This document shows, piece after piece, positions 1-64,000 of a stretch of DNA of 64,000 bases (positions within the stretch are counted from its first letter, which is position 1; each line of letters starts with the position of its first letter). Under the pieces are notes generated by a model that did not search any database, had not been told where the DNA came from, and saw nothing but the letters and a program-made list of their open reading frames with translations. The position numbers were made by a program, and so were the translations under genes. Source of the DNA: Trebouxia sp. TZW2008 (lineage: Eukaryota; Chlorophyta; Trebouxiophyceae; Trebouxiales; Trebouxiaceae); contig BDIU01000287.1 in the NCBI GenBank assembly GCA_002118135.1, positions 310,001-374,000 of the forward strand. Direction: 5' to 3'.

Positions 1-3000
1 TGGTCTAACATTCCTGCCCTTTTTTAATTGTGCTTGTGAAACTATACTTACTGGCAGCTTTGGCATATGTGCTAAGGTCACTCAGCTGCGTAAGCATCTT
101 GACATATGGGCTGGTATAATATTCCTGCCCTTTTGGATTGTGCTTTGGAGCTATACGTACAGGCAGATTTGGCATACATGCTAGGGTTATTGAGCTACAT
201 GAGACCACAGTAAACTCTCTTTGTAACTACTGCTTTGGTTGCCAAGAAATTTGTCCTTACATCAAACTATCCTTACTCAGAGGGACTGCTGCGTCAGAAT
301 GCAGTGATTGGTCACCAATAGTGTTGTCCTTAAATCAAGATTGTCCTTACATCGAGTGTCAAAGAGAGTTTAATGTATTGACAGGTGGGCTGGATCAACA
401 CCCTTGCCCTGTCATGTTTCTGTCTAACAGGGATGGGTGTAACATAGAGTTCAGCTTCACTGTGGCATATCACCTCAGCGAAAGCACTTTGCGCAACCAT
501 TTGCAGCAGCCTGACCACATCTTCCCTTTCTCTCCTTTCTTTCTTTTCATAACACGCTTTGATGATGGGTTTTCCAGCACAGACTGTTGGGCGCTGCAAC
601 ACCTGTGTGCTTATCTGTCGTGCCCTGTTATGCATCTGCTGCCGAACCCTTGTGTTGCAATGCTGCAGTCAAAGATCCTGAGCATACCCTGGGTTATCAG
701 AGGTTCTACGATGAAATCATAGATTCAGCCAAACAGGTATGCCTGATTTGGTTCTTGCTTCAACGCAGCCGTCAAAGTGTTTCTCCAAGATGCAAAAGGC
801 AAGCCACTTGATTTACTGTACACTGCTGTACGTGCTTGCCTTGCCTCGTGATACTTTTCATGAACATTCTGTAGCTGGATATTGTCAGCATCACATTTCC
901 AACGGACGCCACGCATCTCATCAATGTTGTGTTGCAAGCTGTTGTCCATATCACGTTTCCTAACAAGTTTCAGCTGTTGCTTGCAGACAAATCTTACGCT
1001 GATGGCCATTCCTGACAACGACGTGTATCTGCCTGACTTGCGAAAGAAACTAGAGCATCACATGACAGCGAACCTCAACCGTCTGCCACCAGAGATAGTC
1101 ACTGACCTTGATAGAGAGCTTCTCAGGCAGATGTGCAGTAGTGTCGATGGTGAGTCTGTCTGCCCCCGTGCATCTTTCACCTCATGCCTGCTAGGCTCTC
1201 TAGGCTCTACACGGCCTAGACCGTCACATGACAGGAACCCTTTTGAGCTTCTGCCAGCAGACAAGTCACCGATAATGACAGAGAGCTTCTCAAGCAGATA
1301 TGCAGTTGCATTGATGGTGAGTCTGCCTGCCCATGTGCACACATCACCTTATGCCTTCCAGGCTCTATAGGCTCTCAACACACTAGAGCATCACCTGACA
1401 GGAACTCTTGTGCCTTTGTCACCAATGATGGTCACTGAGAATGACAGAGAGCTTCTCAGGCAGGTGTGCAGTTCAACCCATGGCACATCTGCCTGCCCAT
1501 GTGCATCCATCACCTCATGCCTTTCAGGCTCTATAGGCTCTTCACATTTTAGACTGTCACATGACAGGAACCCTTGAGCTTCTGCCAGCAGACAAGTCAC
1601 CAATAATGACAGAGAGCTTCTCAAGCAGATATGCAGTTGCGTCGATGGTGAGTCTGTCTGCCCATGTACAGTCCTCACCTCATGTTTTCCAGGCTCTACA
1701 GGCTCTCAACACACTAGAGCATCACATGACAGAGAACACTAAGCTTCTGCCAACAGACAAAGTCAGTGATCCTGACTGAGACCTAGTGAAGCAGATGTGC
1801 ATGTCAGTTGATGGTACACCTGCCCGCCCATGCATCATATCATGCCTCCTAGGCACCATGACCCTGTCAGGTGCGTAAGATGCAATGATTCGTCTTCAAA
1901 CCATGCACACTCCTGCTACTTGGCACGTCTACATGGCACATCACACTAGCATCACTCACAGGCCTGCCCTTGTGCTGAGGATGTCATTGTGTATCGTCAT
2001 TGTTTGCATGCTTTCTCATGAGATTCTATGACCCTGTTGGGTGCATACAGAAGCAATGCACTGCCTCCAAACATTGTGCATGTCTGCCCTGTGACACACA
2101 GCTTGCACAGGATATCATCCCATCGTCACCCATACTGTTCACACAGCCCTAGTAAGATATGCTAGCAAGTGTAATCAGTGATCATTATTGTGGTGCATGG
2201 GAATGCTTAAAGGAAACAGGCATAACCAGGGGCAACTCCCATAACGCCAACACCAACCCCATGTTTGCAAGCCAGCTCAAGCTGAGGATCCACACGGAAG
2301 ATTGTGGTTTGTGTGGCGCGTGCGGGGGTCAACACTGCAGATTGTCATTTGTGTTGCGCCTGCAGGGAAATAGCTGAAGGAAACAGGCATAAGCAGGGGC
2401 AACTACTTCAAGGCCAACCCCAACCCCATGTTTGCAAGCCAGCTCAAGCTGAGGATCCACACGGAAGATTGTGGTTTGTGTTGCGCATGCGGGGGTCCAC
2501 TCTGCAGATTGTCATTTGTGTTGCGCCTGCAGGGAACTGGCTGAAGGAAACAGGCATAGCCAGGGGCCAATACCTTCTGGCTGACACCAGGATCATTTTT
2601 GCAGCCAATGCAAAGGGCGAGCTTGCAGCTCAAGGTGACATGCACTGCTTAGACAGGTTCTGGCCCATTTGTATGCAAAATCACCTGCCATTCCTGCACT
2701 TACTGTGCTGTTGGCTGGCTGTGCACACCATCACTTGCCATTTCTGCACTGGCTTTGCTTTCAGCTGGGTGTGCTTAGGAATCACCTGCCATATTTGTAC
2801 TGGCTGCAGTTTTGGCTGGTTGTAACATTTTTGCCTGTCATATCTACGCTTGCTGCATGTTCAGCTGGGTGTGCACAACATCACCTGCCACATCTGCCCT
2901 AGCTGTGCTTTTGGCTGCCTGTGCATATCACCACCTGTCGTATCTGCAGTAGCTCTACTTTTGGGTGGTTGTGCACAAAATCACCTGCCATATCTGTACT

Positions 3001-4367
3001 TGCGTTGTTAGCTGGGTGCACCATTCTGGCCTGTGTATGCAGCTTCTACAAATCTGTTGCAGGTTGGTTATGGCATGCAAGCATGACATCTTCAGCAGTG
3101 GGCAATGGGGCTCACACAATTTACCTTGCTCTTCATCAGCTTGTCCATAACATATACAGCAACTCCTCACAGACTTAAGCAAAATATGCTGATGCATACT
3201 GCACAGTAGTCATATCCCTTGATACTCAATTTTCCACTGCATTAATGCATATCAGTCACAACCCCTGACTTGACTTAAGTTTGCTTCGTCACTCAAGCAA
3301 GCAGTCAGCCAGTCAGCTAAACAGTCAGTCAGTTAGTGAGTGAGTCAGTCCGTCAGTTTGTTCATCAGCTAGCCATATGTTCAGTCAGTCAGTCAGTCAG
3401 TCAGTCGACCAATGGACAATGAAGCTTACTACCTGGCCTGACAATGAGCATGCATGTGTCTGTTGCAGCTATCCAGCCAGGTGAGGACGGGCTGGAGTTC
3501 ACTGCATGGATAGCAAGGAGTCCCCGCCTGACTCATGCGTTCTTCTCCTCATTCATTGGGCCCGATCCCATTGACGAACATGCGAAGCAGAACATTGGAG
3601 GAGGGGCTCTGTGGCTAGCCAGACACAAAAAGTATGCACCCTTTTGCTGTGCTACAAAGTGCTGCTTTGCTTGCCCGTTTTGCTGTGCTTTACAATGTGG
3701 TGTGACCTGCCTGTTTTGCTGTGTTTTACAATGCATGGCTTGCCTGCTGCACGGTGTTCAATTTTGGTACATGGCCTGCCTGTTTTGCTGAATATCACAG
3801 TGCTGCATGGCCTGCCTGTTACACTGTGTTTCACAGTGCTGCATGGTCAGCCTATTTTGCTGTAGTTAACACTGCTGCATGGGCTGCCTGGTTTGCAGTG
3901 TTTCAGTGCTCACGCTTTGGAGAAGAAGCTGTGCTTGCATGCAATGAGCTTTGGCCCATCAACTGCAGACTCACACTCTCACATTCGACTGTTTGTTGTT
4001 TTCCTGCAGGTTCCCACGAAATCAGAACTATATGATTCGGCCAGGTCTTGTCCCTCCAGGAGGACGGTCTATTGTTGATTACATTGTTGGGTATCTGCCG
4101 GCAAACTTCTCCGTAGTGAAAAAGCAACACAAGAATGACAGCATCCTGAATGCATTTGACCTTGACTTTGAAAAGGGTCCTAGCCAAGTTCTGAGCACCA
4201 AGATGACTTTCATATATGAGTGGAAACGGCACAACATCCGAGATAGGATGAGAGCAACAAGGCATCGTCTCAACAAGCGTGGAGGTTACATCAGAGGTCA
4301 TCGCTCAAAAGCAGAAAGGGAGAGAATGAAGGAAGAAAAAAGAATCAGAGAAAGCCAGAATGCCTAG
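1..4367 (+). CDS. Unrecognised conserved-looking protein, 3' part (5' end outside window)
   Basis: Four phase-consistent exons are visible: 669-736, 987-1149, 3469-3631 and 4010-4367 (stop TAG). Earlier exons must lie upstream of the window, because exon 669-736 enters in phase 1. The joined product reads FYDEIIDSAKQ, then DNDVYLPDLRKKLEHH and DRELLRQMCSSVD, then RSPRLTHAFFSSFIGPDPID, then RPGLVPPGGRSIVDYIVGYL. It ends in a strongly basic tail (RHRLNKRGGYIRGHRSKAER) of the kind seen in nucleic-acid or membrane-surface binding proteins. I do not recognise the family. Introns are very large and repeat-filled (1150-3468 and 3632-4009). The 3' region contains AATAAA near 4577. The reading frame, codon use and all three phase matches make a real gene likely; the function is unknown. 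Confidence 0.7.
8..200 (+). repeat. Tandem duplication, period about 110 bp, two copies
   Basis: The block beginning near position 8 (taacattcctgcccttt) recurs near 117 (taatattcctgcccttt), with the following 80 bases also matching (ctatactta/ctatacgta, ggcagctttggcatatg/ggcagatttggcatac). It lies in an intron of the first gene. Confidence 0.8.
221..365 (+). repeat. Dispersed repeat family R1, copy A
   Basis: About 145 bp starting tgtaactactgctttggtt and containing ttgtccttac three times and gaatgcagtgattgg. Related copies lie at 30623-30770 (same orientation) and 25914-26052 (inverted). All three are in introns. The copies begin near GTAAC and copy C ends near GTTAC, so a small non-autonomous element is possible, but no clear target duplication was seen. 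Confidence 0.75.
1055..1830 (+). repeat. Five-copy array of exon edge plus 5' splice site
   Basis: The 3' end of exon 987-1149 together with its donor is copied downstream about every 166 bp. The real donor is at 1150 (gatg|gtgagtc). Copies of the exon edge (gagagcttctc..gcagat) are followed by donor-like sites at 1317 and 1648 (both gatg|gtgagtctg), a destroyed one near 1481 (ggcaca), and one at 1814 (gatg|gtacac). Copies of the upstream part (actagagcatcac) precede each. The copies contain frameshifts and stops, so they are treated as intronic. Confidence 0.85.
2200..3010 (+). repeat. Two intronic tandem arrays
   Basis: At 2205-2560 a unit of about 165 bp (aggaaacaggcata..aggggc, then gaggatccacacggaagat) is present twice with a partial third copy. 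At 2660-3010 a unit of about 55-60 bp (aatcacctgccat, then ttggctggttgtgcac) recurs roughly six times. Both are inside the intron 1150-3468. No coding potential beyond repeat-derived open frames was seen. Confidence 0.75.
3295..3412 (+). repeat. Degenerate (AGTC)n microsatellite
   Basis: A run of cagtcagtcagt-type tetranucleotide repeats, imperfect in the first half and clean near 3383-3405. Intronic, just upstream of the exon starting at 3469. Confidence 0.9.
3640..3905 (+). repeat. Intronic tandem repeat, period about 36-60 bp
   Basis: Repeated units of the type gcctgcctgttttgctgtg followed by a tttacaatg-like segment fill most of intron 3632-4009, starting only a few bases after the donor. 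The real acceptor at 4009 is outside the array. Confidence 0.75.
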
Positions 4368-4857
4368 TCCACCTAATCAGAACGATTGGCTTGTTTGCCT
4401 TGCTGTCAATATGCTACCAGTGCATTCAGTCTGTCAAATGGTTCTTTTGACACTTGGAAAGCTTTGTGGTGGTTTTAGTGCAGACGGTGCAGCAAATCCT
4501 TCAGCACTTGAGTTCACTTGTCGACTAGCTGCTTTTAATTTAGTTGTGCCGTGGTTCACACAGCATGTACAACACAAATAAATCACAGGACGTCAAGCAC
4601 GAGCAGCGTGCGTCGTATGTACATATGTTTTACCCCATCTGGTAAACATGCGTGCAAAGCACACCTGATGCAAATTTCATTTGCTCAAACTACTTCTCAG
4701 TGTAGATACAGCAACATCAAAAGCAGATGTCAACACTTTACTCTGTGCGATTTCGAAACTGTGCGGCTTTTGCATCAGCTTAGTTTCGAGTTTTGCCACA
4801 GATGCTCTCATGCCCAAGCGGCCGTCGATTCTCAAATTCTGCTTGCCCATGTGAATG
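4368..4857. other. Tail-to-tail intergenic region
   Basis: 490 bp between the stop of the first gene (+) and the stop of TAF8 (-). It holds AATAAA near 4577. No TGTAA motif and no open frame with coding character were seen. Confidence 0.6.
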
Positions 4858-10972: not shown

Positions 10973-13796
10973 ATGCCTCTTCAAGCTAAGCCTATGGGAG
11001 GGACCCCAAAAGGCCCCCCGCCCCCTAGCAAGAAGTACGCAAACGTGAAAGCCACCTTGGACACCGGTTTCAACGAGCTGAAGATCAAATCATCAGAGTC
11101 CAAGGCAAATGCAAGATTTCACAAAGGAGAAAACTTCAGGAGGCTGAAGGTGACAAGCTTGTCAACTTGTCGATACCTTTGCACAAGGGTGCTTTCAAAT
11201 GATATTTGCTGATTCAGCAACACATTGCAGGTCAGCAGCTTGATAGCACTTATGCAAGAAGCCACTGTGGACATGCTAGTGCTGGACTTGCGTGATGAAG
11301 ATGACTTTGCCCAGTATCATCTGCAAGGGGGTATGCCATGCCTGCTGGAAAGTGTTGCCGTCTGAGTTCGCTTTCTCTGTACTATGCCTTGTCAAGTTTG
11401 AGCATTGAAGCTTGCTCTGATGACTGCGCTGCATACACTGCCTATGCACAGTAGTCAATTTGATATCATGCAATGATCATTTCCATAGTTTTGTTGCCCT
11501 GATTGGGTGCCAAGCAGAACATGAGCATCACAGGTCTGCAATATATAACTATCATGCAGTCATCACAGCCTCACATCGTCTGACTGACGGCCTTGCCCTG
11601 TTGCCTACTATGGCTCTGGGCATTGCATGACAAAGTGCAGTCTGAACATGGCATGAGGCACAATTGGTGTATGCCTTGACGCTTACTCTGACCTGCACAG
11701 TGCAGCTGTGTCCTTTTGCTCGTTGCTCCACCAAGCATCAAATAGTGGAGTCCAATCTTGACATGGCACAAGGCATCTGCGTATGCCTTGACGCCTACTC
11801 TGAGCTGCACTAGCATCAATCAATGATGTCCTATCTCAGCACGGCACGAGGCATGACAACGCATGCCTTGATGCTTACTCTGAGGAACTGCACAGTGCAC
11901 CTGTGAGCTACCCATCTGCCTACTGTCACAGAAGAGCAACCCCAACATCAGCATGGCATGAGGCACAACATAGCGTGCCTTGACGCTTGCTGTGATCTGC
12001 GCAGTGCAGCTATGAACAGAAAAGTGATCATAGTGTCACTATCAGACTGTAAACCCTTTCCTTGACTGGTCTCAACATGGCATGAGGCGTAACAGCGCAT
12101 GCCTTGACGCTTACTCTGATTTGCGCAGTGCAGCTGTGAACTACCCTATCCGCCTGCTGTCAAGGCAGTGCAACCCCTTCACGACAGAGATCCTGGCATA
12201 CATCAACAAGGCACCTGAGAAGATCATACTGCTGTCAGACCTGGATGAGCACATGGCCTTCACTGCTGGCAACTCCTTCTATGAGAAGGGGGTTGACAAT
12301 GTCTTCATTGTGTCTGGTGGTAAGCAGCCCTCGCATTGGCTGTTCTGATTGTCATGCTGTACCTGCAAGCTTGTATCTGCCAGCTTGTGCATGCACCATG
12401 CAAGCATCGATGACTTCTGTGAGAAGAGGGCGGACAATGTTTTAATTGTTTCTGGCGGTAAGCAGCCCTCATAGTTGCCCTCACATTTGCTGTTGTGACT
12501 GCAAGAGAAAGAAAAGGTCTGTAAGATCAGGCGTCTCACCACGAGTCTCAGTGAATGGAAGCAGGCCAGGCTTATGACTGCAATGCTGTACCTACAAGCT
12601 TGCACCTGCAAGGTTGTCAAAGCATCCTGCGTGCAGCATTGCATCCCATGCAGCATGCAAAAGCCAAATGTCTTTTTACCAAATCTTGTGAGGTAAAAGC
12701 TCGTCAACTATCAAGGTGTAATCAAAGTCAATCAGCCATCACTCGTATGCAACACGTGTCCTCGCATGCCGGGTGCATCAGCCCTCTCACCAGCAGCACC
12801 TACATCACAAGCGTCACTTCTCACTATCAGCTCTGGCATGGTGATCTTGCCCAAGTGAAATTCCTGCATATGACAAGCAGTCAATCGCAGACATGTGCAT
12901 GCTTTTGAGAAGGGGATAGTCGTGCAGCTCGACATGCCAGCCCACTCTCCTGTGTGACTGCATGTGTATCAACAGGCTTTGCCTACATATCAGACTGGTC
13001 ATTCTTGTTTGCGCTGTCATCAATCTGAGTTTCTGAGTTGATGGCAGTCTAGCCATACCTGCAAATCATGTATTCAGGTGCCTCAAAGGTGGGTCTCTTC
13101 CCAGAGAGCTCTATCTTGACCAGAAGCGCCAATGGCGTTGGCTGCTATGTCAGTAGCCTTAAATGAGACGAAGAGATTGCTCGGCTTATACATCTGCATG
13201 GTCAAAGTCAGCACAGGAGGTGGGCGGCTGACATACTGACCATACACGCATTGCCTGCTTCGACCCACTTGACACAGTGTCAGCATCTTTGCAGGCTTGG
13301 CTGCTGTGTCCTGTCAGCAGGGCAATGCAGATCTCGACATGGACTATGCTCCCTGGCGCCAGCCATCCTGATGCAGACTATGAGGCGCGCCGTGTGCGCA
13401 GGTCCGTGGGACAACATAGGCAGCACTCACTGCCTGTAAAGCATTGCAGGTCTGAAGCAGGTGCACAAAGGACATTGGAGGCTATCATTGTTCAAGTGTG
13501 CTGCAGGTCCACAGGAAATATACAGGGACCATAGGAGGCAACCAACAGTCATCTCATTTGCCCAATGTGTTGCAGGTCTGAAGGAAGTGTTACGGCAGGC
13601 GCCAGAGATGTGTGAGGGTCCCAGGGTACCCCAGCCCCTGACCCCCAGCAGGCCCAACTCCAGCAGGTCGCGGGCCCAGGCTGACCCCCTGATTGCAGTC
13701 CCCAGGCAGGGGTACACCCCCACAGGCAGCATCAGACCCAGGACCTCTGCTAGCAGACTGTCCCTTGACATCCAATCACAGCATTGGAGACAGTAA
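10973..13796 (+). CDS. CEP41: Centrosomal protein of 41 kDa (CEP41), rhodanese-fold ciliary protein
   Basis: Four exons: 10973-11149, 11231-11330, 12134-12319 and 13576-13796; 227 residues. The N-terminus matches the CEP41 N-terminal motif (YANVKATLDTGFNELKIKSS, then ENFRRLKV). It is followed by a rhodanese-like domain: VLDLRDEDDFAQYHLQGG, then NYPIRLLSRQCNPFTTEIL, IILLSDLDEHMAF and VDNVFIVSGGLKEVL. The catalytic cysteine position of true rhodaneses is replaced in the loop SDLDEH, as in animal CEP41 (YDDDER), so it is probably not a sulfurtransferase. CEP41 is required for axonemal tubulin polyglutamylation. The C-terminus is basic and Pro/Ser-rich. It is shorter than animal CEP41, lacking much of the middle linker and the tail. 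Both long introns are packed with copies of splice junctions. Confidence 0.9.
11560..12133 (+). repeat. Array of acceptor-plus-exon-edge copies in CEP41 intron 2
   Basis: About five units of 110-135 bp share catggcatgaggc, then gcatgccttgacgcttactc, then tgcgcagtgcag followed by ctgtgaac-like sequence. The last unit supplies the real acceptor of exon 12134 (gcagtgcag|ctgtgaactac). The copy near 11895 also retains a version of the next 35 exon bases (gtgagctacccatctgcc versus gtgaactaccctatccgcc). Confidence 0.85.
12375..12480 (+). repeat. Decayed copy of the 3' end of CEP41 exon 3 with its donor
   Basis: The sequence around 12416-12470 (tctgtgagaagagggcgga, then tctggcggtaagcagccctc) copies 12278-12331 (tctatgagaagggggttga, then tctggtggtaagcagccctc), including the GTAAGC donor. 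The flanking cttgtatctgccagcttgtgc / cttgcacctgcaaggttgtc blocks show the duplication extended further. Confidence 0.8.
13435..13580 (+). repeat. Copies of the acceptor and start of CEP41 exon 4
   Basis: The real junction tgttgcag|gtctgaaggaagtg (exon 13576) is preceded by gcattgcag|gtctgaagcaggtg near 13450 and gtgctgcag|gtccacaggaaat near 13509. All three are followed by similar downstream sequence (ggaggctatca / ggaggcaacca). The 13450 copy still encodes GLKQVHKGHW, resembling the true GLKEVLRQAP. Confidence 0.75.
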
Positions 13797-15465: not shown

Positions 15466-16887
15466 TTAGTGCCCATAGTATCCAGCCCGATTGTATGCAT
15501 ACGGTGTTGGTGACGGTGTAGCAGGGGCGGCGCCAAATAGGGTGGGTGAGCTGGGGCTTGATGCCGGCCTGGGTGCTACGTACGGGCTGGGAGAAGACGC
15601 ATATGGGCTGGGACTGTATGGCCTAGGGCTTGCGTAGGGTGCAGGTGCTGGCACATAGGCAGCAGGTGGTGATGCTGCGCCAAAGAGAGTGGGTGAAGGT
15701 GATGCAGGCCTAGGTGCTGGTGTTGCGTAAGGTGTGGGGTATGGTGTTGGTGCTGCTGTTGGTGCTGGTGTTGGCCTGACTGTTGGAGCAGGTGTGGGGT
15801 AAGGTGTGGGTGCTGGTGTGGGTCTGGCTGTGGGTGCTGGGGTAGGGTATGGAGTTGGGTAGGGTGTTGGAGCAGGTGTTGGCCTGCTGGTTGGGGCAGG
15901 TGTGGGGTAAGGTGTGGGTGCAGGTGTTGGCCTGGCTGTAGCGTATGGAGTTGGAGCAGGTGTGGGTGCGCTGGTGGGGGCAGGTGTGGGGTAAGGTGTG
16001 GGTGCTGGAGTTTGCCTGCTTGTTGGAGCAGGGGTTGGGTATGGGGTTGGTGCTGGTGTAGGCCTGGAAGTAGGGGCAGGTGTGGGGTATGGTGTGGGTG
16101 CAGGTGTTGGCCTGACAGTTGGAGCAGGTGTGGGGTATGGTGTGGGTGCAGGTGTGGGTCCAGTTGTGGGTGCTGGGGTGGGGTATGGAGTGGGTGCAGG
16201 TGTTGGCCTGGGACTGTATGGTGCTGGTGTCACTGCCGGACTGCTGTATGGCCTTGGAGTTGATGAAGAGCCTGCAGTGAAGAAAGAAATGATAAGACAC
16301 AGAGCACATACACTATCAGGAATGACAGTATAAAGCAGGTACAAGATATCAGATGTGGAATGCGGAACTGAACAAACTGCTCAGATGCTTTTCTGAAGCA
16401 TCAAGCCCTCGCATGATGCTTTAGGCAAACTTGCACTTCTGGGACTGTGCAAGGCTGGACATGCAAAGCAGATATACTTAAGACAATGCATTACATTCAT
16501 GATGCAGAGCAGAACAAAATATTTACAGGCACTTACCAAACAGAGGAGTGGCTGCAGGTGAGCTGATTCCATAGCCATACCCATAAGGGGAAGGTGAGCT
16601 GTATCCATAAGCCTGCACAACAAGTTGAATGTCAATGTTCCACGTCATACAAGCATGACGTTTATCAGGCATCATAGCCAGGACTTGAAGGTAGTGGGCA
16701 GACCAGTAAAAGCATTGGAGCTGGCATTGCAAAGAGCACTCACCACAGGAGACCTGGCTGCACTAGACTGCTGAAGGTGCCTTCTTGATACTGGTGCGGC
16801 GTGGGCACCAGCCACCAAGAACACAGCTACCAAAGCAGCATACAACTGCAGCAGCAAAAGAATGAGTGTCAGACTCGGTTGCGGCAT
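15466..16887 (-). CDS. Secreted Pro/Thr-rich repeat protein (hydroxyproline-rich glycoprotein-like)
   Basis: Three exons: 16744-16887, 16537-16612 and 15466-16271; 341 residues. Residues 1-30 are a strong signal peptide ([20 protein letters not shown], then AGAHA before AP). The mature protein has a Tyr/Ser/Gly segment ([10 protein letters not shown]) and then about 150 residues of the repeat [14 protein letters not shown] with substitutions such as ARPTPAP and SRPTPAP. The C-terminal third is Pro/Ser/Tyr-rich with the motif TLFGAA twice (and TPLFG in exon 2), ending NRAGYYGH. The composition fits an extracellular, O-glycosylated cell-wall protein of the HRGP/pherophorin type. No folded domain is seen. 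The repeat DNA at 15720-16215 is a minisatellite, so length is likely polymorphic. Introns have acttac/actcac donors on this strand. Confidence 0.85.
15720..16215 (-). repeat. Coding minisatellite of the Pro/Thr-rich protein
   Basis: Units of ggtgtggggtatggtgtggg type (plus-strand reading), nested periods of about 12, 30 and 60 bp. It gives long spurious open frames on the opposite strand. Confidence 0.9.
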
Positions 16888-18292: not shown

Positions 18293-20881
18293 CTGACTTG
18301 ATCAGCAACATTTGGCTCCCTGAGAATGTCATCCTGTCAGCATGCAAAAGGCCATGCAGAAGTGCCCAGCACATCTTTGCAGTGGTTTGGTTTGCAGCAA
18401 AGTATAGGTCATGCTAGCTAGTTACCCAGCCATGTTTCCTGCTTGCAAGGACCAAGATTGTTGGAAGTAGCCTTAGCATGTCATGGACAAAGCAACCCCT
18501 GTTACAGCATGCTATGTACTCATTCACAATATGTCTCAGCAGCCTGCAAAGGTGCACTGTCACCAGTGTAGTCTGTCTATGACTGTACAGCAAAGCAGGC
18601 TCAACTGCTATTGCTTTGTGGCATGTCGGAGGCAAATGCTGCAGCTGGCTTCCAATCCATCAGGTTGTTCTAGCTCTCTCGGAAACTGGCAGCATATAAA
18701 GTTGCTTTCCATGTAAAAATACCAGACATATATTTGCAGCGCCGTCGTTTGCTGCATAGCAGAGGTCACCCTGGCTGGTTGTACAGGTGCATAGTCTGCT
18801 TGTACGAAGCATCCTTGTCTGGTCATTGTCAAAGCAGCTCCTAGGAGGCCTGGCACACTATCACCATTGCAGTTTGTCTGTAACTGCACAGCAAAGCAGG
18901 CTTACCTGCTGTTGCCTTGTGGCATATTGGGGCCAAACGCTGCAGCTGTGCTCGCAGTCAGCAGGACATGTCTGGTTGCAAAGTCTGTCAAGGCTTCACC
19001 ACTTTCTCAGTTGCTTCTATGGGACCAACAACTTGTTGTATTGCCGTTATGCATCTACAGAGTGCAGGCATGTATAACATGAATCATAGTCAGGCATGCT
19101 GGACACTTGCAGATGACATGTTTGCCGTCTGTGACAGCTCACCAGTGCCTGCTAATCATGGCTGCTCAAACCTCAGCAGGAGCAGAATGCAGCCTGATTA
19201 GATGCATCTACATGGCTCTGCAGCACACATTTCTCACTGCATTACTAAAGTCCGCTCTGGAGCATGCACCTGCAAGCTTACATAAGCTAGCAACGACCTC
19301 CGTTGGTTTGACATTTTGATTGAACAGCATTCAGTTGGACTGAACTCAAAGCGGCTTTTTCAAAGCCTGCATGTGGCAGCAGCACAAGTGATGCAGTGGC
19401 AGGCTCTAGAGTTCTGGAAAGCTGCCTTGTTGGCTCATAGATGTAGAACTTGTGCCAATGAGGCAAGTTTCTCACTACTGCATCAGGCAGCCTACAGGTG
19501 TTGCTACCTTCTTGCTTGATCATCATTGACAGAGTGGTCCATCATGCGGTTCTATCCCATTACCATGACTATTGAAAGCCTGCGCATCAAGTGCTGTTCA
19601 TGCAGTCAGTAGATCATGGAAAGAGGGGTGTGCTTTGGTGTTTGACTATGACTGCCACAAACAGCATGTCCAAGCATACAGGGTTAGCAGGTCACCAATT
19701 GAGTAAACAGCATGTCAAATCCATGCAATGCACAATGTAGAACTTGTGCCCTGCCAGGCTGCAAAGCGTCAATCACTGTAGAACTCTTTCAGCAACACAG
19801 GCTGCAAGAGTTGCCGACTGAGCCATGCATACGCTTTGTGTGCCTGCTGCCAGTGAGATCTGCAGCAAGGTATGTACACACGTGCTGTGGTAAGCATGCA
19901 CCAAGATTCTTGTCCTTCTGCTCGATAATTAGCATCTACACTCATTGGGATCGCACAATGATGATGAAGTTGGGAAATTGCGATGAAGCGCAATTATAAT
20001 TAGAGGACACTACATAAGGTGTGATCTCATGAGGTTGGCCTTGCCTGCCATTAGGCGCCAGCGTTCGATGGCTCCTAGCCGATGCCTGCAGGAAGCCGTT
20101 GGCATGCTGTCATAGCGACGGGCACCTTACTCAACACGTGAAACTCGAGCAGCTACTCGTCACGTAACTGTCATGATGACCAAGTCACTTCGACGCTGCC
20201 TGATGACTCAGTGAGCCGCGGCCGTGAGGTCATCAGCTGCTTACGCTTAGCGTACAAGCGGAAGGCGTGAAGTCCATGTGTGGGAGTATGTCCTGCATCT
20301 GTTCTCCGCTGTGTCGAGCGTCGTGACGCCTGTGGTCGCTAAACAGCTGCTATAGGCTTTGTGTAATCGCCTTGTTGCTGGTCAGAGACAGTAGCGTCTG
20401 CTGGAAGTGCGCAGAATCCAAGCCTGCATGATACCGGCAAGGTTCTAGAGGTTTTGCTTCTGACTGACCAGACGGTTGGCACGGGTGTGACGAACGACCT
20501 CAAGCCGAGTACTGACAGGTGGTTGCAGGCCGTTTTCAGCTTCGGTCAAATCATTCCTGTGAGCATTTGTAACTCCCTGACTGGTTTGAAATTCACTCGA
20601 TTTGAGCTGCATACCTGCTTTCAGCCTTCCTGCGCCGAAGTCGAGCCAGATCTGCTCTCGCATTGCCCTTTGACAGTATTCCTGGTTGCTTTTTGCTGCT
20701 GTGTCAGTTTCGTAAGGCTTAACTGTATGCAACAGGGATTGCTGCGCTTTGACTGTGTCACAGCATGCCCCTGCCTGTATGTCGTGGGAATGCTGGGCTG
20801 TGTTGATACATGCAATATGCTGCAGGAGACATCTGTCAGGGCTCACAGGCTTTTCACAAGTTGCAGTACGGGACTTGCGAT
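18293..20881. other. Repeat-bearing intergenic region, no gene identified
   Basis: 2.6 kb. It contains a duplicated block of about 110 bp, 300 bp apart (18545-18660 and 18845-18965). A short match, tgtagaacttgtgcc, occurs at about 19441 and 19736. The segment 20100-20450 is CpG-richer and could hold the promoter or 5' leader of the E2 gene. Open frames at 19712-19999 and 20454-20948 lack recognisable content. Confidence 0.5.
18545..18965 (+). repeat. Direct repeat pair, about 110 bp each, 300 bp apart
   Basis: 18558-18660 (tcaccagtgtagtctgtct, then acagcaaagcaggct, then ttgtggcat, gctgcagctg) matches 18858-18960 (tcaccattgcagtttgtct, then acagcaaagcaggct, then ttgtggcat, gctgcagctg). Confidence 0.8.
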
Positions 20882-22395: not shown

Positions 22396-25300
22396 ATGGC
22401 ACCAAAGCGTCAGAACAAGAAGCAGAAGAGTTCGCAGCAGAAGCAGACTGCTTTGCAGCATCGGCCCGACCCTTCAGTTGCTTGCTTTGCTTTGCATTCT
22501 AGCGGCGACTTCGTAGCGGTAGCTGTCGGAGGAGTAGTCAGGATAAACCGAATCAGGCATGCACATTTCAGCGAGCATTGCCTTTCATGCATCCTCTCAA
22601 CCAATGAGTTCATCATTCCTGCTATTCAGGGATGCTTCCGCAGCAGACCAAGTTACCCACAACCATGCAGCACCAATCAGGGCTGTCTCGTTTGATGCCA
22701 GTGACAAGTTCTTGTCAGCAGGAGACGAGAAAGTCTTGAACGTCTGGGACACAACTTCTTGGAAGCAGCTGCAGTCCATGTGCGCTGAATGCTTCTGCTT
22801 TGACTCTGTACATGTGCATATGCAAACGTCTATGCATGCAAACATATGTACCTGCACACCTACCCTCAATTCATTTGTGTCTTTGGGCTGTGACTGATGA
22901 CATGACATGCAGACAGTCCCCGAAGAAGATCACTGCAGCAATTTTCAGTAACGATGGCAGCTCTGCCATATTTGCCGACAAGTTTGGCGATGTTTTGACA
23001 GCCAATTTGCAACCCAACATATCTCCCCAAACAGAACGTCCAGCTGTGCCTCTGTTGGGGCACTTGTGCAGCATCATCACGTCTTTGGCCTTTTCACCTG
23101 ATGGCAAACATCTTGTCAGCACTGATCAGGACTGCAAAGTACGCATCAGTACAATGCCAAATCAGCTCCACAAGGTGAGGCGCCCAGCTATACGTTCTTG
23201 GGTCAGAAAGCCTTGTTTGTATTTGCTTTTCAAACACAATTGCGAGGCAGACTTGAAATTGAGCAACTAGGTACACACGTACGCATCAGCCTTTGCGCAA
23301 ATCTGTCAGAAGCGGTCTTGAATTCAACTGGACATGCAAGGCACACACAGCATGAAGCCTGGCATCATTGCAACCTGTGCTTTGATGCAACCACCAACTT
23401 TTTGCACCATCCCAGGCTGCTTCTACTCACACAGGCTCCCATGATGCGCTTGACGGCATAAAGTTTTCTTTGCCATTTCAACCTGCTTGTTGATCCTGCT
23501 GTGCTGACTTATGCTGCAGGGCGCACATTCAATTCAGAGCATTTGCATGGGCCACAAGAACTTTGCAAAGTGTTGTGCCTTTCTCACCAAGAAAGGTGCT
23601 GAGCCGCTTCTCCTATCTGGCGGAGGAGATAGCACCATCAGGTGATGCTTTTGCAGCTGGCTCATTTGTACAGCTCACCATTAATGCTATGCCAGTGCCT
23701 GTATCCTACACAGGCAAACCAGAAGTAGCTGCACAAATTTGCTCATTAAAGTGATCATGAATGAGTACACCACAGACTGTCCAGTAGGTGCAAGCAACTT
23801 GTTGCAGGCGCAGCAGTGACAGTGCCAGATTGCGACAGATTGTGCAAGTGCTATGTCACTTTGTACACAGAATGCCTCGGGCTTCAGCCATGCACACTGT
23901 ATTGGCTACAAACACAGTTTTCTCCTGCTTGGTACATGGTCTTGATGCATGTGCCAAGCAAGACACCACCTGACAGCATGCTTGGCTTCAGCAGGTCATG
24001 GCAATACCAAGATGGCAAGCAGCTAGACTGCTACACATGTACATCACCAGATGACCAGGATGATGTACCCAGCAATGCATCAACTTCATCAATCACTATC
24101 TACCAACATAGTGTGTGCTTGGCTTGGCAGGTCATGGCAATACCTAGGCGGCAAGCAGTTGGACTGCTTCACATGTTCAGAACCAGATGCTCAAGATGAT
24201 GCACCTGGCAATGCACCTGTTTCATTGGTCACTGGTGTGTCAGCTGATGGCGGTGTGCCAGCTGCTTCTGCAACGGCGCAGAGCGATGCAGAAAGGCAGG
24301 ACTTGGGCGATGAAGATGATGCTGACATGGGTACGCAACAACAGCACAGTACAAGTTGCCTGTGACTTGTCAGCAGGACATGGACATGTCAGATGCACTC
24401 AAGAGAGCTTCTGCAAGCAGCAGCATAAAATAGCACATGACTGCTTCCAGAGCTTTGTGGTCCAGCGTGAACTGTGCATGGCATCAGCAGCGCATCATCA
24501 GAGTGTTGCCTGATATCAACCTGGTGTGCAACGCTGCTTTGGGTGCTGCTCAGCCTAGCAGAAATGCCGCTGATGGCAGCAATCCCACAGATGCTGATGA
24601 TCATCTTCTCTTGTCTCGAGTCTTGCGTATGCAGTGTCCAGCACCTTGCAGCCATGTCATGCGCACTGCTGCTGCAGGTGCTGCTCAGTCAAGCAGTGCT
24701 AAAGCAGATGGCGGAAGTGTCCTTGATGGTTTTGCTGCAGATGCAATCAACAACGCGCCAGATGAAGACTGCAATGCTGCTGCAGGTGCTGGTCAGCCAA
24801 GCAGTGCAGCAGATGGCAGCATTGCCACAGCTGCTGATGGTGCTGCTGCAGACGCATCCAACAATGAGGAAGATGATAGTACAATGCTGCTGCAGGTGCT
24901 GCTCAGCCAAGCAATGCAGCAAATGGCAGCATCCCTACAGTTGCTGATGGTCATCTTCTCTCGTGTCCAGTCTTGCACAGGCACCCTCTAGCATTTTGCA
25001 GGCATGTAATGTGCAACGCTGCTGCAGGTGCTGCTCAACCAAGCAGTGATGCCGCTGATGGCAGTTATTCAACAGACACATCTGACAACGGGCCAGATGA
25101 GGACTGCAATGCTGCTGCAGGTGCTGCTCAGCCAAGCAGTGATGCAGCAGATGGCAGCAATGCCACAGCTGGTGCTGGCGCTGCTGCAGATGCATCTGAC
25201 CGTGAAGCAGATGAAGGAAGCGAACCTGATGAAGAAGCTGATGGGGAAGCTCAGATGCCAGGAGCAGCTACAGCAGGAGGCAATGCACAGCAGGCTGTGC

Positions 25301-28443: not shown

Positions 28444-29233
<790 letters not shown>

Positions 29234-29250
29234 GTTGCTCTACGGATGGA

Positions 29251-41000: not shown

Positions 41001-44000
41001 CAGAGGGAGCGATGATAATACACTTTCTCCATGTACCCCTGTGGATGTGCTGTGCAGGCAGAGATGTGACGATGGCTGGGCTTCTTGCATGTGTCAATGT
41101 AGATGTGCTTTGCTGGCAGAGGGGAGTGATGACGGCAGTCCTTCTTGCATGTGTCACTGTAGGCGAGCTTTGCAAGCAGAGGTGGTGATGATGATGGTAT
41201 ACCTTGTCCCGTTCACCACTGTGGATGTGCTCTGCAGGCAGAGAGGTGATGATGGCAGACATCATTGCATGCATCACTGTAGATGTGCTGTGCAGGTAGA
41301 GATGTGATGATGGCAGAGAACATGCAGAACGGGTGTGTGAGACTGAGAGAGAGTGATGAGGGCCGGGGTTTGTTCCCCCTGCTGCAGCCCAGCGGTAATG
41401 CCTATGCTGAGGTTCATCCTGTTGGTGACTCTTGGCTGCAGTCCATGTGGAAAGAAGGTAAAAATCACTTGCTACATTTCAGTGAACTCACATCCTGTCC
41501 TGTTCCTTCCTTACCTGTCCTTTTCTGACTTGTCCTGTCTTGTCATGCCCTGTTATGTCCTGTCCTGCTTGTGACTAGTGACCTCAGGGTAGAAGAGTCT
41601 CACCTGGCAAGCAGAGTCCTGTGTCATGTGCCCACCTTCTGCTGTGGGCTGGTCCGGTCTGGTCAACTGTTATCCAACCAAGGCCAGCATGACTTTTGGA
41701 AGGCCTTCGTCTGGAAACATCTGCTTTGTTTGCTGGATTTATGTTGTCAAGCACAAGTTGTGCTACAAATGTAGGCCTGCGTGATAGCCCCAGCGCAGTT
41801 TCAGACACTGCATGGACCTTGCTGTCTTTGGTGCATTGATGGTGCACTGCATGTTGTACTTGTTCAATCACCGCCTGGAGATGTTCAGCATGAATGCTGT
41901 GTACAACATCATTCAGACAAGCATGCACAAGTCATGCACAATTCAAAGAGGTCAGGAAAGCACAGGACCAAACTGGGTGGAGACAGTTGATTGCTCCAGT
42001 AACTACCTAGCTGGGCCTGCTGAGCCTGTCTAGCATACGTCTATGAATGCATGCAGGCAAGGCCAAGGCAGCAGGGCCAGAGGTGAAGAGAGGGCGCACT
42101 GATTTGGCAGAGACGTTGTGGCAGACCAGCAACCCATATCAGGATGGGCGGTCTCTGGGAGATCAGTGGATGGAGGCCAAGGGCAAGCAGCGGGTGGAGG
42201 GTCCTGAGATGCGCAGGGGCCGCAGGGTACTGCCCTCTGCAGCTTTTTGCTGCTGTGCATGCATTTGGTGCCTACTGATCTACACGCTGCGATGTTGTAA
42301 AAGGCCCCAGCAGGGTGCTGCTCTGCCCTCATCATCTTGCCTGGATTGATCTTGCTGCTTGTTACTGTTGCATAGTTTGCATGTTGTCAACCATACATGC
42401 GTGTCAGATCAAGTGAGTGGCAAGAGGGTGCTGCCCCCTATATCATTCTCTGCCCGGCATTCATTTGACCTCAACATAACCTCGGCGTGACTCAAGGGCA
42501 GTCTGCATGCTAAGCTGGCATCAAGTCAGTCTCGCAGAAGTTTTAAGAGCTGTTGTGAGACAGTTGCCTTCTTGATCCTCCTGTTGCATCTGCGCTGGTA
42601 AGCTAGTGGAAACAGACTGCTCTGCATGTGATGTAGTCTGACTGCTTGAGTCAGTCAGCAACTGCTGCAGCTCATTGTCCAACAGCTCCAGCATTGCAGT
42701 CGTGTTCATGCATACCCTTTTGTATGTAACAATGTGAGTTATTGTATGAGTCTTTGACACTATCAGTATGATAGCACAGCTGTTGTTGTCTGCCTATGCA
42801 GCTACAGCTTGCTACAGCTATGTAGAAACAGCATAGCTGTAGAAATATGATATATGGTCAGCATCAGGGCATCATGCCTTGCACAATCAGTCAGCTTATG
42901 CAGTCAGACTGTCTTGGGCAGCCATAGACTTAGCAGCTATGCAGAGGAGCAACTCGGGCAGCACCAAGCCCCAGAGGGCTTGTTTTCAGGTGCAATAACT
43001 ATCATGCGGGCAGTCATGGCAGCTTCTACTTGGTGATTTGGCAGCAGTGCAGCTGTGACTGCACAGCAAACCAGTGACAGCGCTTGAGCACTATGTTCAC
43101 GCAACTTCAGCCTGAATGAAATCTGTTGATATATGCGACTGACAGGAAGTGAAGGTGTTGGGCCAGCTGCATGCATGCCTGGCAGATCTTGTCTGCAAGG
43201 GCGGCCATGCAGCAGCAGTTACCAATCAAAGCAGCTATATTCTCGACTAGTGACTCTAAGCTTCAAAGCGCAAAGCAGAGGTCTTGATGCTGGCAGGCAA
43301 TGTATGCTCAGCATTGCTGCATCGGGAGTTACAAGAGCCTTCAAGGGTTGGAGTGTGCAGCAGGCAGTGCAGAACTGTGTAAGGTGTCGTGTGGGAGCTT
43401 TGCCCTGACAAGAACATTCAGGAGGAAACAGCCCTTGCTTAGCATTGCTGCATAGTCACTGTTGCACATATCTGCAGCCCGGCAGCAGCTAGAATCAGAC
43501 AAGGCACTGCTGCACAGCCTCACCGGAAAGCATCAGAGCCCAGAAGAAAGAGAATGCCAGACTGTACAATGTGACAGCTTTGGATGCTGCAGGAAGGTCA
43601 TGATACTTTTCCTGCAGAGCTTGGATTCTGAAACGATTCATGCTATGCAGGACATGTTTGGGACGCTGCAGCAGGGCAACAGCCCTGTCAAGAACAGGGA
43701 GGAAGCCACAGCCAGCGGAGACCGCTGGATAGAAGACATCTGGAGTAGGGGCAAGGCAGTGAACCCTCCTGCCCCACCTGCCCACTGCCAGTTCGTAGAC
43801 ATTGTGCAGCAGACGTATGACAACCCCTATAAGTCTACCAGACTGGAAGACAGGGCTGGTGACACTTGGCTGACCAGCAGGGGCAAAGCAGCTGTGCCAG
43901 GATCTGCAGGTGATCTTGCTTTTCATTCATTCATTCATGACTGTTTCCATTCATTACAAAAGCTTGTTAGGAAGGCTATGAATCCTATTGACCAGATATG

Positions 44001-44787
44001 ACAGCATACGCTTTATAAGCTGCCGCTCTTTGCACAGCCATGTCAATACTTTCCGCAAGTTTGCAAGGTCATGCCCTGTTCAGTGCTCTTTGCACAATCA
44101 TGTAACTGCTTGCTGCAGTTTGCAAGGCCATGCACAGTGCTTGCTGCTCTTTGCACAGTCATGTGAATGCTTGATGCAATTTTCAAGGGCATATTTGGGC
44201 TTGCTGCAGTTTTCAGGGCCATATGAGTGCTTGCTGCAGTATACCAGGCCAAATCAACGCTTACTGCAAATCACAAGGCATGCTCAATGCCTGCTGCACT
44301 TTACAAGGCAGTGTCAACTACAGAAACACATCTGCTGACTGAAGAACCCATTATGACAGTCTTGAGGATGGCTGATGGTGCAGCTTTGCAATGTTGCAAG
44401 CAGGACAGCAGGATAGATCGCTGCATGTGTCGGCACTTGCACTCCGTTATTGGCAAGACTGAGTTGAGAGTGAGTCAGACTTGACTGACACGCTGGGCAG
44501 TCATGTTTGTCCTCAGATATGGGCACTTGCGATCTGTTGCCAGCAAGACTACGACAATAACATCTGGTACACCTGCAGGTACTGATCACCAGCATGAGAT
44601 GCAGTGCACACTGCAAGGTATCAGCGCTGTGCAGCCCTTACGCCCTGTCAAGACTCACCACACAGCGTCCCATCTAGAACAGCAGCTCAGCTTGCATCCC
44701 AAGGGGTCTGACAAGAAAGCGCAGCCCAGGAATGCAGCCTTTGCAGCCTCACATCTGGAAGCACGTAGCACCCTACACCCCAAATGA
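38001..44787 (+). CDS. Protein with GD-W repeats and coiled coils, unrecognised; candidate ciliary protein
   Basis: Exons 38001-38138, 38246-38578, 38853-39025, 39520-39803, 41317-41457, 42057-42226, 43618-43909 and 44579-44787 join in phase to about 579 residues; a 37-codon phase-0 cassette (43486-43596) may be included. The N-terminal third is helical (LKYQELNRVGELTRKQLDRT, FQKIQKRLNQGLSLHSPQEL). The middle has DYNVVKG and PCGHHMKPDGSYAIKPLTP. A spaced motif recurs: GDSWLQSMWKEGKA, GDQWMEAKGKQRV, GDRWIEDIWSRGKAV, GDTWLTSRGKAAV. The C-terminus has two copies of ASHLE-(5)-LHPK. No catalytic domain was seen. The ciliary idea rests only on the repeat style and on CEP41 in the same contig. Four introns carry long repeat arrays or R2 elements. 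Confidence 0.75.
39049..39107 (+). repeat. Dispersed repeat family R2, copy 2
   Basis: Begins CTAGACAGGCTCAGCAGGCC and continues cagctaggtacagactggag. It starts 24 bp after the donor of exon 3 of the 38001 gene. Confidence 0.87.
40500..41316 (+). repeat. About 14-unit array ending in a real 3' splice site
   Basis: Units of about 60 bp (tgtgctttgcaggcagag, gtgatgatggcag, accttcttgcatgtgtc, actgtagatg). The last unit's gatgatggcag is the acceptor of exon 41317. Every earlier unit therefore carries one or two acceptor-like AGs in similar context. Confidence 0.88.
41972..42034 (-). repeat. Dispersed repeat family R2, copy 3 (inverted)
   Basis: Ends tagctgggcctgctgagcct then gtctag, the reverse complement of copies 1 and 2. 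It stops 22 bp before the acceptor of exon 42057. Confidence 0.87.
42521..42701 (-). CDS. Possible exon of an antisense gene nested in an intron
   Basis: An open minus-strand segment ends at a TGA at 42521 and reads LELLDNELQQLLTDSSSQTT, then AEQSVSTSLPAQMQQEDQEG and ALKTSARLT. It is Gln/Ser-rich with coding-like codon periodicity and starts MNTTAM after possible acceptors. A second minus-strand open segment at 42937-43176 (SFRLKLREHSAQALSLVCCA) could belong to it, but I could not connect them. Both lie in the 42227-43617 intron of the plus-strand gene. Confidence 0.25.
44030..44330 (+). repeat. Intronic tandem repeat, period about 32-65 bp
   Basis: Units of the type catgtgaatgcttgctgc, then agtttgcaaggcca, repeated about eight times between exons 43618-43909 and 44579-44787. 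Confidence 0.85.
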
Positions 44788-52566: not shown

Positions 52567-52662
52567 AATGGTTCTGTTCTGTCGCATTAATCTGCCAATC
52601 TGGATTTTGGCAAACTCTTAACAATTGCAGCAGCGCGCTGAAAGTCACAAGCAAATTAGTCT

Positions 52663-55600
52663 TTAGCAAGCACCTCCTGGTGCTTTATGCCTGAGCCACT
52701 GCAACAGTGTCTCATGTGAAATGGTGATTCTGCCTAGATTGCTTACTGGCATGTCAGCTGACAGTGTCGAAACAGCCAATGGCAGTATGTGCTGAGTATC
52801 ATACTGCTTGCTGCCTGTAAGGGCATCAGATGATTGCGCACGACGCTCTGCTGCAATGTCTGTGTGGGCTGCATAATCAGACTCGCTTTGGCTTGGATCT
52901 GTTGTTGGTGTCGCATTCTGGAGCTTTTGGTCCTGTGCATTGACAGTGCCAAGCGGAGCTTTGACCTGGACCAGAAAATGACAAGGCGACATTTAGACAA
53001 CGGAAGTATAAATGCACAGAAGCTTTCACGTCAACACGCACTGCAACATGCAATGAAAATTTAGCTGTTGGCAAGCAAGATGCTCTGATCTAGTCGCTTA
53101 CAGGGACATGCGTGAAAGCACAACTGCAGCTATAAAGCATCTGACATTACCTGAAAACAAGGCAGGCATACCTGGTCAAGCTCCATATGCAGATGCTTTT
53201 GCAGAAGCTGCTCAATGGCCCAGCGCAGCTTTGGCCCTCCTGGCTGTGCGTGCTGGCCTTGACCAACAATGATGCAAAGCTCCCCAGGTATGGCCTTGCC
53301 TGTCTTGAAGCGCTCCTGCAAACATAGATCAGAAGATCACTGCTGCATTCCAGCATGCAAGGTGTACATTGGATCTCCAAGCAACAAGCTTGTTGCAGCA
53401 GCATGCATGCTTCAGAGGATCACTGTTGCGTTTCAGCATGCAAGGTCTATCTTGGCGCTACGTGCAAGTAGCCATGGTCCAGTAGCATGCATGTTTAGCC
53501 TCCATACTTTGCAGTTGTGGCAATGACGATGCGCCAAATGAACTGCAGACCTAGTTGGACTGCCAATTCAGGAACATATGATGCGCAACAATTCCAAACA
53601 CTTAACTTGACATAATTAGCCAGTGCTGAACATCTAAGATGTACCTCAAGACATGAAAGTCAAGCTTACCTGAATGTTGCACAGCACGCACAGCACAGCA
53701 GCCCTTGCTTCCTTGGCACTCAAGTTGTGCAAGTCCACGATCTCCTTCTTGCCCTCTTGCTTGGACTGGATCAGAAAATCTCCTACCTGCAGCAAATGCA
53801 TGTGACTCGGCATGTGATTCATTTAGATGACTGCCCGTCTGCAGCAACAAACAAATTGACCATGTTTGGCAAGGACGTCGAGCACCAGCTAGACTGAGAC
53901 TGAGACTGAGTCTGAGTCTGAGGCTGGTCAAAGACAGCTCTATGGCAGCATTTGTGTCTGCACTAACAAGAACAGAATTGCTAACAAGGAAAGAATTATT
54001 CACAAGAAACTAAACTGGCAACAGTGCACTGCACTAGGCATGATGGTGTAGAGGGTATAGCCACCTTGGTCTTCAGCTCACTGTCATTGGTCTCAAGCGC
54101 TGCTTCAGCGCAAGCTTTGACCAGCTCCTGGAACTCAGAGTTCACGCCAGGAAACCCTGCAAACCGCACATCGCATGTTGGCCCTTCAACACTTGCTTGG
54201 CATGAGCCTGACAGCAATGCTCTGTCCAACCTTGCACATCATTTGCAATGATCATGTGACATGCACCTTGAACTGCTTCTCAAAGCTGTTATGCCAACAA
54301 TTGCAAAGATTTTGATGGGCACAATATGCAGCGTCAGCATGCATTTTGTGAGGCTATGTATGTCATTGATAGGCAACACAATCAAGCCAGGCGCACAGCG
54401 CATCTTGACAAGGCGCAGGCAGGCAATACACATGCACACAAGATGCACTACCCAGCGCCACCCCCAATTGAGGCACATCAACTCTCCAAGTCAGCGTATA
54501 CACTGTGCCATAGCTGCCTTGTAGGGGATCACATAAGCATTATTTTGCAAGCATGATAACGGGGCATAAGGTACCTGCTCGCCGCATGCCAGAGTACACG
54601 TCCAGGGCCTCATGCAGGTGGTTGGCCTCCCTGAGCACACGCATGCAGGTGACAAAGGTGATCTGGTTGGGCTTCATGCGGCGAGGGCCCCACACCATCT
54701 TCTTGAAGGCTGCATGGGCGTGCTCAGCCAGGTCAGGGCTGCTGCCACAGGCCTTGATAAAGGCTGTGTACACCACTGTGTTCAGCTTCGTCTTGCTCTC
54801 TTGCAGGCTCTGCAATCACAGGCTGCGATGTTTGCTGCTGTACATCTAAAGGCAGGGCTGTGCTCAACTTGAATTTGCGTCCCTGTAGGCTCTGCAGGCT
54901 AAGACCAATGCTGCTGTGCCCTCAGGCTGGGATGTTTGCTTCTACTGTGCATCAAAGACTGGCAACTTTGCTGCTGTACATCACAAACTCGGGTTTCAGC
55001 TGCAGGGCATGAAAGGTTGAGATCTTCCTGCTGCGCTTGCACAAATGTAGAAACAGGCCAGACTTGCACAGTGATCACGCTTGACAGGACTCAGTTGCTG
55101 GCCCTTGACAAATCTGACTGAGGCCCTAGCAGATACAGACCCAGAGAAGACAGCCTGGTGATGCGTGATCAAGGTGACTAGCCGCCCAGTAAATCACATG
55201 GCGGCTAGTTTGATACTGGCAAAGCAGTGGCTGCAGGGGGTGGATGCTTTTCTGCCTGAAGAACCCTTAGCTGGGATAGCTGTGCCACGACACACTCACA
55301 CACGCAGGGAAACAGGCAGGCAGGCAGACAGGCATCAGTTCAATCCGCTGGGTACCTGCATGAGTTGAAGGGCTTGGTGGCCCTGGCGGGCCTCAGCACA
55401 CAGATTCAGCAGGGTGCTGTAGGTGATGTCATCTGCTTCAACGCCGCGCCCCCTCATCTCTTCCAGCAGCCCGAATGCCACATCTAGGTTCTCTGCCTGT
55501 ACAACAGCAGGCGTGTTTCTTGACATGCCAACTCAGGCATTATCAAAACAAGATGCATAAGTTGGGCACAAGCGGACTCTGGTTGTGCGTGTTGATTGAG

Positions 55601-60065: not shown

Positions 60066-60070
60066 TGTGC

Positions 60071-60771: not shown

Positions 60772-60827
60772 CAGTGACTGCTCATGCGACGAAGGACGAT
60801 CGAAAGCGCTGCAGGAGCCGCGACTGT

Positions 60828-63800: not shown

Positions 63801-64000
63801 GTGCCTTGACACCACAGCACAGCCATAGCTCAGTGCATCTGGGCATTGCAAGAACAAGTGCTGCACAGCTCATTGTAAACACAGTGGCTGCTTATAGCTT
63901 TAAACATCGGTGGTGGTGCTGCAGGGACATGCGCTTGGCTACTTTCAAGCAGAAGGGCATGCCATATGTCAGCCAGCTGGCACTGGAAAATGTGCAGGCC
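60828..64000 (+). CDS. UVDE: UV-damage endonuclease (UvdE/Uve1), 5' part, cut at window end
   Basis: Exons 60828-61043, 61169-62053, 62279-62729, 63122-63262, 63565-63694 and 63925 onward join in phase. Residues 1-72 (RLPLPLTRVVLRNLLRLLGR) are Arg/Leu/Ser-rich, typical of organelle targeting. About 500 residues of Lys/Ala/Gln-rich, disordered, nuclear-protein-like sequence follow (SKKPRRQKKDS, KAPKRKRTAKVK, KKQKRQTKGK, GKKKPKRQRVK). The catalytic TIM-barrel domain starts near residue 580: RPVPNLGYACLTMALREQKP, FTNR, RDMRLATFKQKGMPYVSQLA. UvdE nicks DNA 5' of UV photoproducts and abasic sites. The catalytic His/Glu metal ligands lie beyond the window. Whether targeting is nuclear, plastid or mitochondrial is unresolved; an internal ATG at 61429 could give a shorter form. 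Confidence 0.92.

Follow-up and report, generated by a model that had tools for sequence, protein, structure and literature searches.

Long introns in a stretch of the Trebouxia genome contain tandem units that each repeat an exon edge together with its adjoining splice site, and the question raised by this locus is whether such copies are produced by a process acting at splice junctions or by tandem duplication of local DNA that happens to include them. The stretch analysed (hereafter the window; C273:310001-374000, 64,000 nucleotides) belongs to a genome of 68.5 Mb in 527 contigs, and its first-pass annotation had regarded the anchoring of arrays on exon boundaries as more frequent than expected. 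The reading favoured by the present data, with a probability of roughly 0.8, is that the arrays are degenerate minisatellites generated by ordinary local tandem duplication and placed without regard to splice sites.

The junction-spanning arrays (Table 1) lie in four unrelated host genes, as had been proposed. The gene at 10.9-13.8 kb encodes CEP41 (81% identity to the protein of Trebouxia sp. C0005 and 78% to that of C0010), and the gene at ~22.4-27.8 kb encodes WDR4/TRM82 (62% identity to the Trebouxia sp. C0004 protein and 51% to that of A1-2). These matches point to a Trebouxia-like lichen alga. The gene at 1-4.4 kb had no relative among the 8000 candidates scored in a protein search and no match in Pfam; Pfam, the sole search for the gene at 38-44 kb, likewise returned no match, and the junctions in these two genes were assigned by phase and open reading frame. 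Rfam at gathering thresholds had no match in the window. A predicted gene for a long repeat protein, extensin-like by look, occupies 15466-16271 on the minus strand. The exon chains of CEP41 and WDR4 were spliced with all array copies omitted and aligned to Trebouxia proteins: the full 227-residue CEP41 product matched protein P0001 with 81% identity, and the WDR4 product (from the exon at 22644 onward) matched P0010 with 62% identity over residues 2-387 and P0012 with 56% over residues 46-451. These array-free alignments thus identify the true junctions in the two genes, and each ortholog-supported junction is the outer end of its array.

Table 1. Intronic tandem arrays and duplications of the window, with the splice junctions that they span
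Feature	Span (strand)	Unit or spacing	True junction	Support and remarks
Donor-side array	1049-1854 (+)	166 bp, ~4.5 copies	donor after 1149	TRF, self-blastn and scan; decoy GTs at 1317, 1648, 1814
Acceptor-side array	2194-2607 (+)	167 bp, 2.2 copies	exon start 2533	
CEP41 intron 2, acceptor-side array	11634-12177 (+)		exon start 12134	ortholog-supported
CEP41 intron 3, donor-side single duplication	12276-12470 (+)	138 bp apart	exon end 12319	ortholog-supported
CEP41 intron 3, weak acceptor-side copies	13444-13589 (+)		exon start 13576	ortholog-supported
WDR4/TRM82, acceptor-side single duplication	23979-24233 (+)	137 bp apart	exon start 24131	ortholog-supported
WDR4/TRM82, acceptor-side array	24525-25214 (+)	~93-110 bp	exon start 25121	ortholog-supported
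WDR4/TRM82, short acceptor-side duplication	25679-25802 (+)	65 bp apart	exon start 25785	ortholog-supported
Acceptor-side array	40488-41317 (+)	~58 bp (116 higher order)	likely exon start 41296	phase only
Intron array, no junction spanned	2676-3034 (+)			TRF and scan
Intron array, no junction spanned	3642-3903 (+)			TRF and scan; starts 10 bp inside intron
Intron array, no junction spanned	18366-18948			
Intron array, no junction spanned	25348-25459			
Intron array, no junction spanned	44021-44308 (+)			TRF and scan
Intron array, no junction spanned	53329-53496			
Intron array, no junction spanned	54815-54982			

Six of the seven junction arrays listed in the first-pass annotation were borne out by self-alignment, exon edge and splice site being repeated in each; the seventh, at 13435-13580, is weak, its sole passing match pairing 13444-13463 with 13570-13589 over 20 bp (E 2.8e-4), short of the cut-off used in the systematic scan. 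The proposal, made at that stage too, that an end unit holds the true junction stands for CEP41 and WDR4 through the Trebouxia proteins, and in the other two genes it follows phase and open frame. This position has a ready explanation, since in a run of exon-edge and intron units at a donor the first donor alone keeps the mRNA unchanged (acceptors being mirrored), while use of an inner copy would put intron sequence into the mRNA, so that selection retains the outer junction. The single duplications are clear in self-blastn, with 12276-12332 of CEP41 intron 3 repeated at 12414-12470 (86% identical) and 23979-24097 of WDR4 repeated at 24116-24233 (80% identical). Copies in the junction arrays listed earlier are 68-90% identical by self-blastn, and TRF reports higher-order periods of 331 over 166 and of 116 over 58. 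The arrays at 2194 and 25679 had not been listed before, nor had the seven intron arrays clear of junctions, which are counter-examples to boundary anchoring; two of these seven (3642 and 54815) start within ~10 bp of a predicted junction.

The possibility that the copies are retained because they supply alternative sites or exons for splicing bears directly on the fate of the decoys. Many decoys score like the true site: the acceptors at 24678, 24786 and 24896 score 8.5, as does the true site at 25121, while decoy 41238 scores 8.5 against 8.3 for 41296 and decoy 13507 scores as high as 13576, the last two decoys lying less than 100 bp from the true site. However, with exon filter 5 the GT was kept in 19 of 25 copies of true donors (0.76) and the AG in 30 of 36 acceptor copies (0.83), and control GT and AG elsewhere in the same alignments were kept in 59.8% and 72.7% of cases, respectively. 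Constraint on the true site leaves the copy alone free to drift, so that under neutrality the square root of the control value is expected, namely 0.77 for GT and 0.85 for AG; with exon filter 10, GT was kept in 12 of 14 (expected 0.76) and AG in 28 of 33 (expected 0.85), all of these being few cases that are not independent. Loss of decoy GT and AG is therefore close to the neutral one-branch rate, with retention at filter 10 not below neutral, and selection on decoys is unnecessary to account for their retention. Further, stops in the frame of the true exon are hit by scored decoys at several places, namely 14 of 14 in the 40-kb array, two of two in CEP41 intron 2, the WDR4 decoy at 23995, and seven of 11 upstream of the WDR4 exon at 25121; donor decoy 1317 meets no stop, but at 167 bp downstream it would shift the frame. 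The four remaining WDR4 decoys (24896, 24920, 25002 and 25028) are open to 25121, all in phase except 25002, although annotated Trebouxia orthologs of WDR4 carry a single copy of the segment repeated before that exon. Taken together, the decoys are probably mostly unused, and retention of the copies for an alternative splicing role is very unlikely. A narrower version, in which the WDR4 acceptor copies 24896 and 25028 would be used, adding 75 or 31 acidic-linker residues, such that a ladder of competing sites could evolve coding length, is itself unlikely. Were it true, random exon-edge tandem duplication would be a route to repeat-containing linkers.

A junction-linked process, whereby transcription- or splicing-associated breaks, or template switching at exon edges, would preferentially duplicate exon boundaries, is suggested by the sheer number of eight junction arrays and one weak one in 64 kb. 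Chance placement was evaluated in a sample of 312,643 bp of the 68.5 Mb, comprising the window, an adjoining 140 kb and nine further contigs that contribute 108.6 kb; 204 kb of this is one stretch of the window's contig, and the sample is accordingly not random. A self-trained ab initio gene finder predicted 51 genes with 645 exons and 594 introns (intron median 277 bp), and was itself fooled inside arrays, where it called false exons in CEP41 and WDR4. With 26 introns of less than 60 bp dropped, self-similarity was present in 97 of the remaining 568 introns (extended by at most 100 bp on either side), in 79 with a copy mostly intronic, versus none of the 568 when introns were dinucleotide-shuffled and held to the same threshold. 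Local repeats cover 9.1% of the sampled bases, and TRF repeats with a period of at least 15 make up 5.0% of the DNA predicted as intron, compared with 3.9% of that predicted as exon and 2.1% of that between genes. Arrays occur in nine of 295 introns shorter than 300 bp versus 44 of 273 longer ones, and account for ~5% of intron length by a rough estimate. In the sampled DNA, local tandem duplications are old, decayed and common in introns. Across the sampled stretches, the data support the proposal that introns grow, and come to hold splice-site copies, through tandem duplication of local DNA rather than through dispersed insertion.

The median array unit is 121 bp and the estimated median unexpanded intron is 371 bp, and with units so large relative to unexpanded introns, chance should place ~45% of arrays across a junction. 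This expectation was formalized as a probability of approximately 2(u-19)/(L0+u-19), in which u is the duplicated segment and L0 the unexpanded intron, for an overlap of at least 10 bp. An initial straddle test (27 of 53 against 29.2 expected) rested on gene models that split arrays into false exons, which inflated its expectation, and it was therefore replaced by repeat-masked and sliding tests. The main test drops predicted exons mostly made of repeat, leaving out 159 of 645 exons as well as introns below 60 or above 3000 bp, and in it straddling is seen in 30 of the 73 intronic arrays, where 33.1 +/- 3.7 are expected (P(>=30) = 0.83). The corresponding figure beyond the window is 24 of 58 versus 26.5 expected, within it the automatic count is six of 15 versus 6.5, and over ten filter settings 21-34 straddling arrays were observed where 23.6-36.3 were expected, a ratio of ~0.73-1.10. 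A sliding control, which uses no length formula, moved the 59 arrays of contig C273 (51 of them mainly intronic) randomly 300 times, and 23 of 51 (45%) spanned a junction as observed versus 47 +/- 9% of slid arrays. A repeat copy whose partner lies mostly within the intron spans 3.7% of donors and 3.5% of acceptors in the 568 introns, against 4.0% of random interior positions. The position profile of repeat coverage has no peak at the junction, and its rise deeper inside introns arises partly because only long introns extend there; divergence is alike in arrays that straddle a junction and in those that lie inside introns (79% versus 82%, P = 0.23). Junction overlap is about as predicted for random placement, and no process that seeks splice junctions is needed. 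Self-alignment of introns with their flanks, put forward in the first-pass annotation as a genome-wide check and applied here to 312.6 kb, places boundary overlap at about chance level, and neither the unexpected frequency of boundary anchoring nor a process acting at junctions, both claimed from the window, is supported by it.

Some results nevertheless point toward junction preference. By hand curation, eight of 15 arrays in the window straddle versus 5.3 expected (P = 0.11), or nine of 16 if the weak copies at 13444 are counted, in a window that was chosen for this feature and with intron limits that are ortholog-supported in CEP41 and WDR4 and predicted elsewhere. The automatic models had lost the exon ending at 1149, so that two window arrays were scored as non-straddling, and these are restored in the curated count. 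When exon-score filters were tightened with no array masking, straddling arrays numbered 28 of 54 against 25.4, 21 of 45 against 17.1, 12 of 26 against 8.9 and seven of 16 against 3.8 +/- 1.5, and with the strictest filter 17% of acceptors were spanned versus 8.8% of interior positions. However, the last three filters retain 88-263 of 645 exons (59-86% discarded), such that the resulting "introns" swallow real exons, the unexpanded length is overestimated and the expectation becomes too low; the strict-filter excess is therefore distrusted. A mild acceptor bias in array placement may nevertheless exist. Among 99 introns of at least 500 bp, 11.1% of donors and 7.1% of acceptors were spanned versus 9.2% of interior positions. 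In absolute numbers the sliding control gave 51 intronic and 23 straddling arrays against slid means of 27.9 and 13.1, and 23 was reached in none of 300 slides; the excess of intronic arrays over slid arrays is read as the exclusion of arrays from exons. With no excess among the 73 arrays, in the sliding control or in the position profile, preferential duplication of exon boundaries is highly improbable.

Introner elements alter algal intron content as dispersed similar units, and the arrays could in principle have arisen through repeated insertion, at one place, of units of this or a transposable kind. Introners are near-identical and carry both splice sites, whereas for five of the six arrays searched the 68.5-Mb genome gave matches at the array's own locus and nowhere else, in a search that skips very common words; within these limits the array units are private. 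The sixth, the 40-kb array, holds one dispersed insertion at ~40617-40685, and the other matches listed for this array, in a search whose scoring covered 40 of 286 candidates, lie within that insertion or close to it. As that dispersed element is a single insertion and not an array unit, repeated insertion of dispersed units is hardly tenable as an origin. An assembly or sequencing artefact is of negligible probability, given that copies 68-90% identical are too diverged for duplicated reads and that nothing was found in its support.

The insertion in the 40-kb array is a SINE-like dispersed element of ~55-60 nt, which may be among the shortest retroposed elements. Further copies lie at C273:305855, C273:220201-220268 (minus strand) and C1:122350, and a weak copy is present around 31333 of the window. 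The element has a TTTTC-rich tail and, as folded for six of 20 copies, a pair of hairpins, the first formed by GGGCTGCCTCT..ACAGAGGCTCCC and the second with the stem CGCC..GGCG; the first-hairpin pattern, with up to 2 mismatches, occurs at 597 places (306 on the plus and 291 on the minus strand) versus none for the reversed pattern. Flanking direct repeats of at least 8 bp accompany 12 of 20 copies versus 4% of mismatched pairs, and a further 5' hairpin is common to ~5 of 20 copies by eye. Separately, 208-372 and, reversed, ~25910-26075 are similar stretches, the first of which has matching inverted ends by eye (CAGTAAACTCTCTTTG..CAAAGAGAGTTTA) and looks like a MITE. A motif, TAGACAGGCTCAGCAGGCCCAGCT, is common to 27365-27390, 39047-39075 and 42003-42037 in both orientations, apparently within introns, again by eye.

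The present data allow a model for degenerate minisatellites formed by ordinary local duplication. Private units, higher-order periods and identities of 68-90% argue for slippage or unequal exchange that acted on local DNA repeatedly and long ago. In this model, slippage or unequal exchange would long ago have duplicated local DNA repeatedly, and a duplication that included an exon edge would be tolerated, as the outermost copy could splice as before; everything inward of that outer copy would then become intron, and the inner copies would be free to drift. The arrays resemble minisatellites in their head-to-tail copies at one locus, in units that are private (five of six) and in positions independent of junctions, with a mild excess under strict exon filters. 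A related genome is instructive for CEP41 intron 2, where an unspliced gene call, P0004, reads through from the counterpart of the exon with its end at 11330 to the counterpart of the exon at 12134 and spans the intron in ~43 codons (129 bp), versus 803 bp here. The intron is thus common to the relative and much shorter there, such that the array enlarged it or the relative reduced it; at this one intron compared, tandem duplication did not create a new intron. Just beyond the window's end (C273 ~64345-66398 in window coordinates), a predicted gene that resembles UV-damage endonuclease by eye encodes a segment in two closely similar versions, RMTSSMPSFCTLYD and RMTSTMLPFCTFYN, which is possibly another exon-edge duplication.

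Known systems offer close parallels. Internal tandem repeats that reach across exon-intron boundaries give human duplicated genes additional splice sites or novel introns (PMC2812944); the Trebouxia arrays likewise overlap boundaries and supply extra splice sites, but the human repeats are recent, variable in copy number and supported by RNA, whereas the copies in this alga, described here from DNA, are old and diverged. The Rogers model derives a new intron from tandem genomic duplication of exon DNA that contains AGGT (PMC3443670, PMC4974935). Tandem duplication supplies duplicated splice signals in both cases; however, that model makes a new intron, and CEP41 intron 2 is a shared intron differing in length. 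A 2013 survey of Chlamydomonas and Volvox reports that green-algal introns are rich in tandem repeats, as here, and that these are denser near intron ends (PMC3887541), an enrichment near junctions that is not seen here for long-unit arrays. The titles and abstract openings searched, mostly from outside subscription journals, contained no account of arrays of this kind in Trebouxia.

Junction-spanning arrays in Trebouxia are a real, common and ordinary feature of a known kind. They mislead ab initio gene prediction, and they provide a null model in which units about one-third the length of the unexpanded intron lead ~45% of arrays to copy a junction by chance, such that claims of boundary-targeted repeats in short-intron genomes need a chance baseline. 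The arrays further constitute a natural experiment in splice-site choice, in which sites of equal or higher score lie within 100 bp of the true one.
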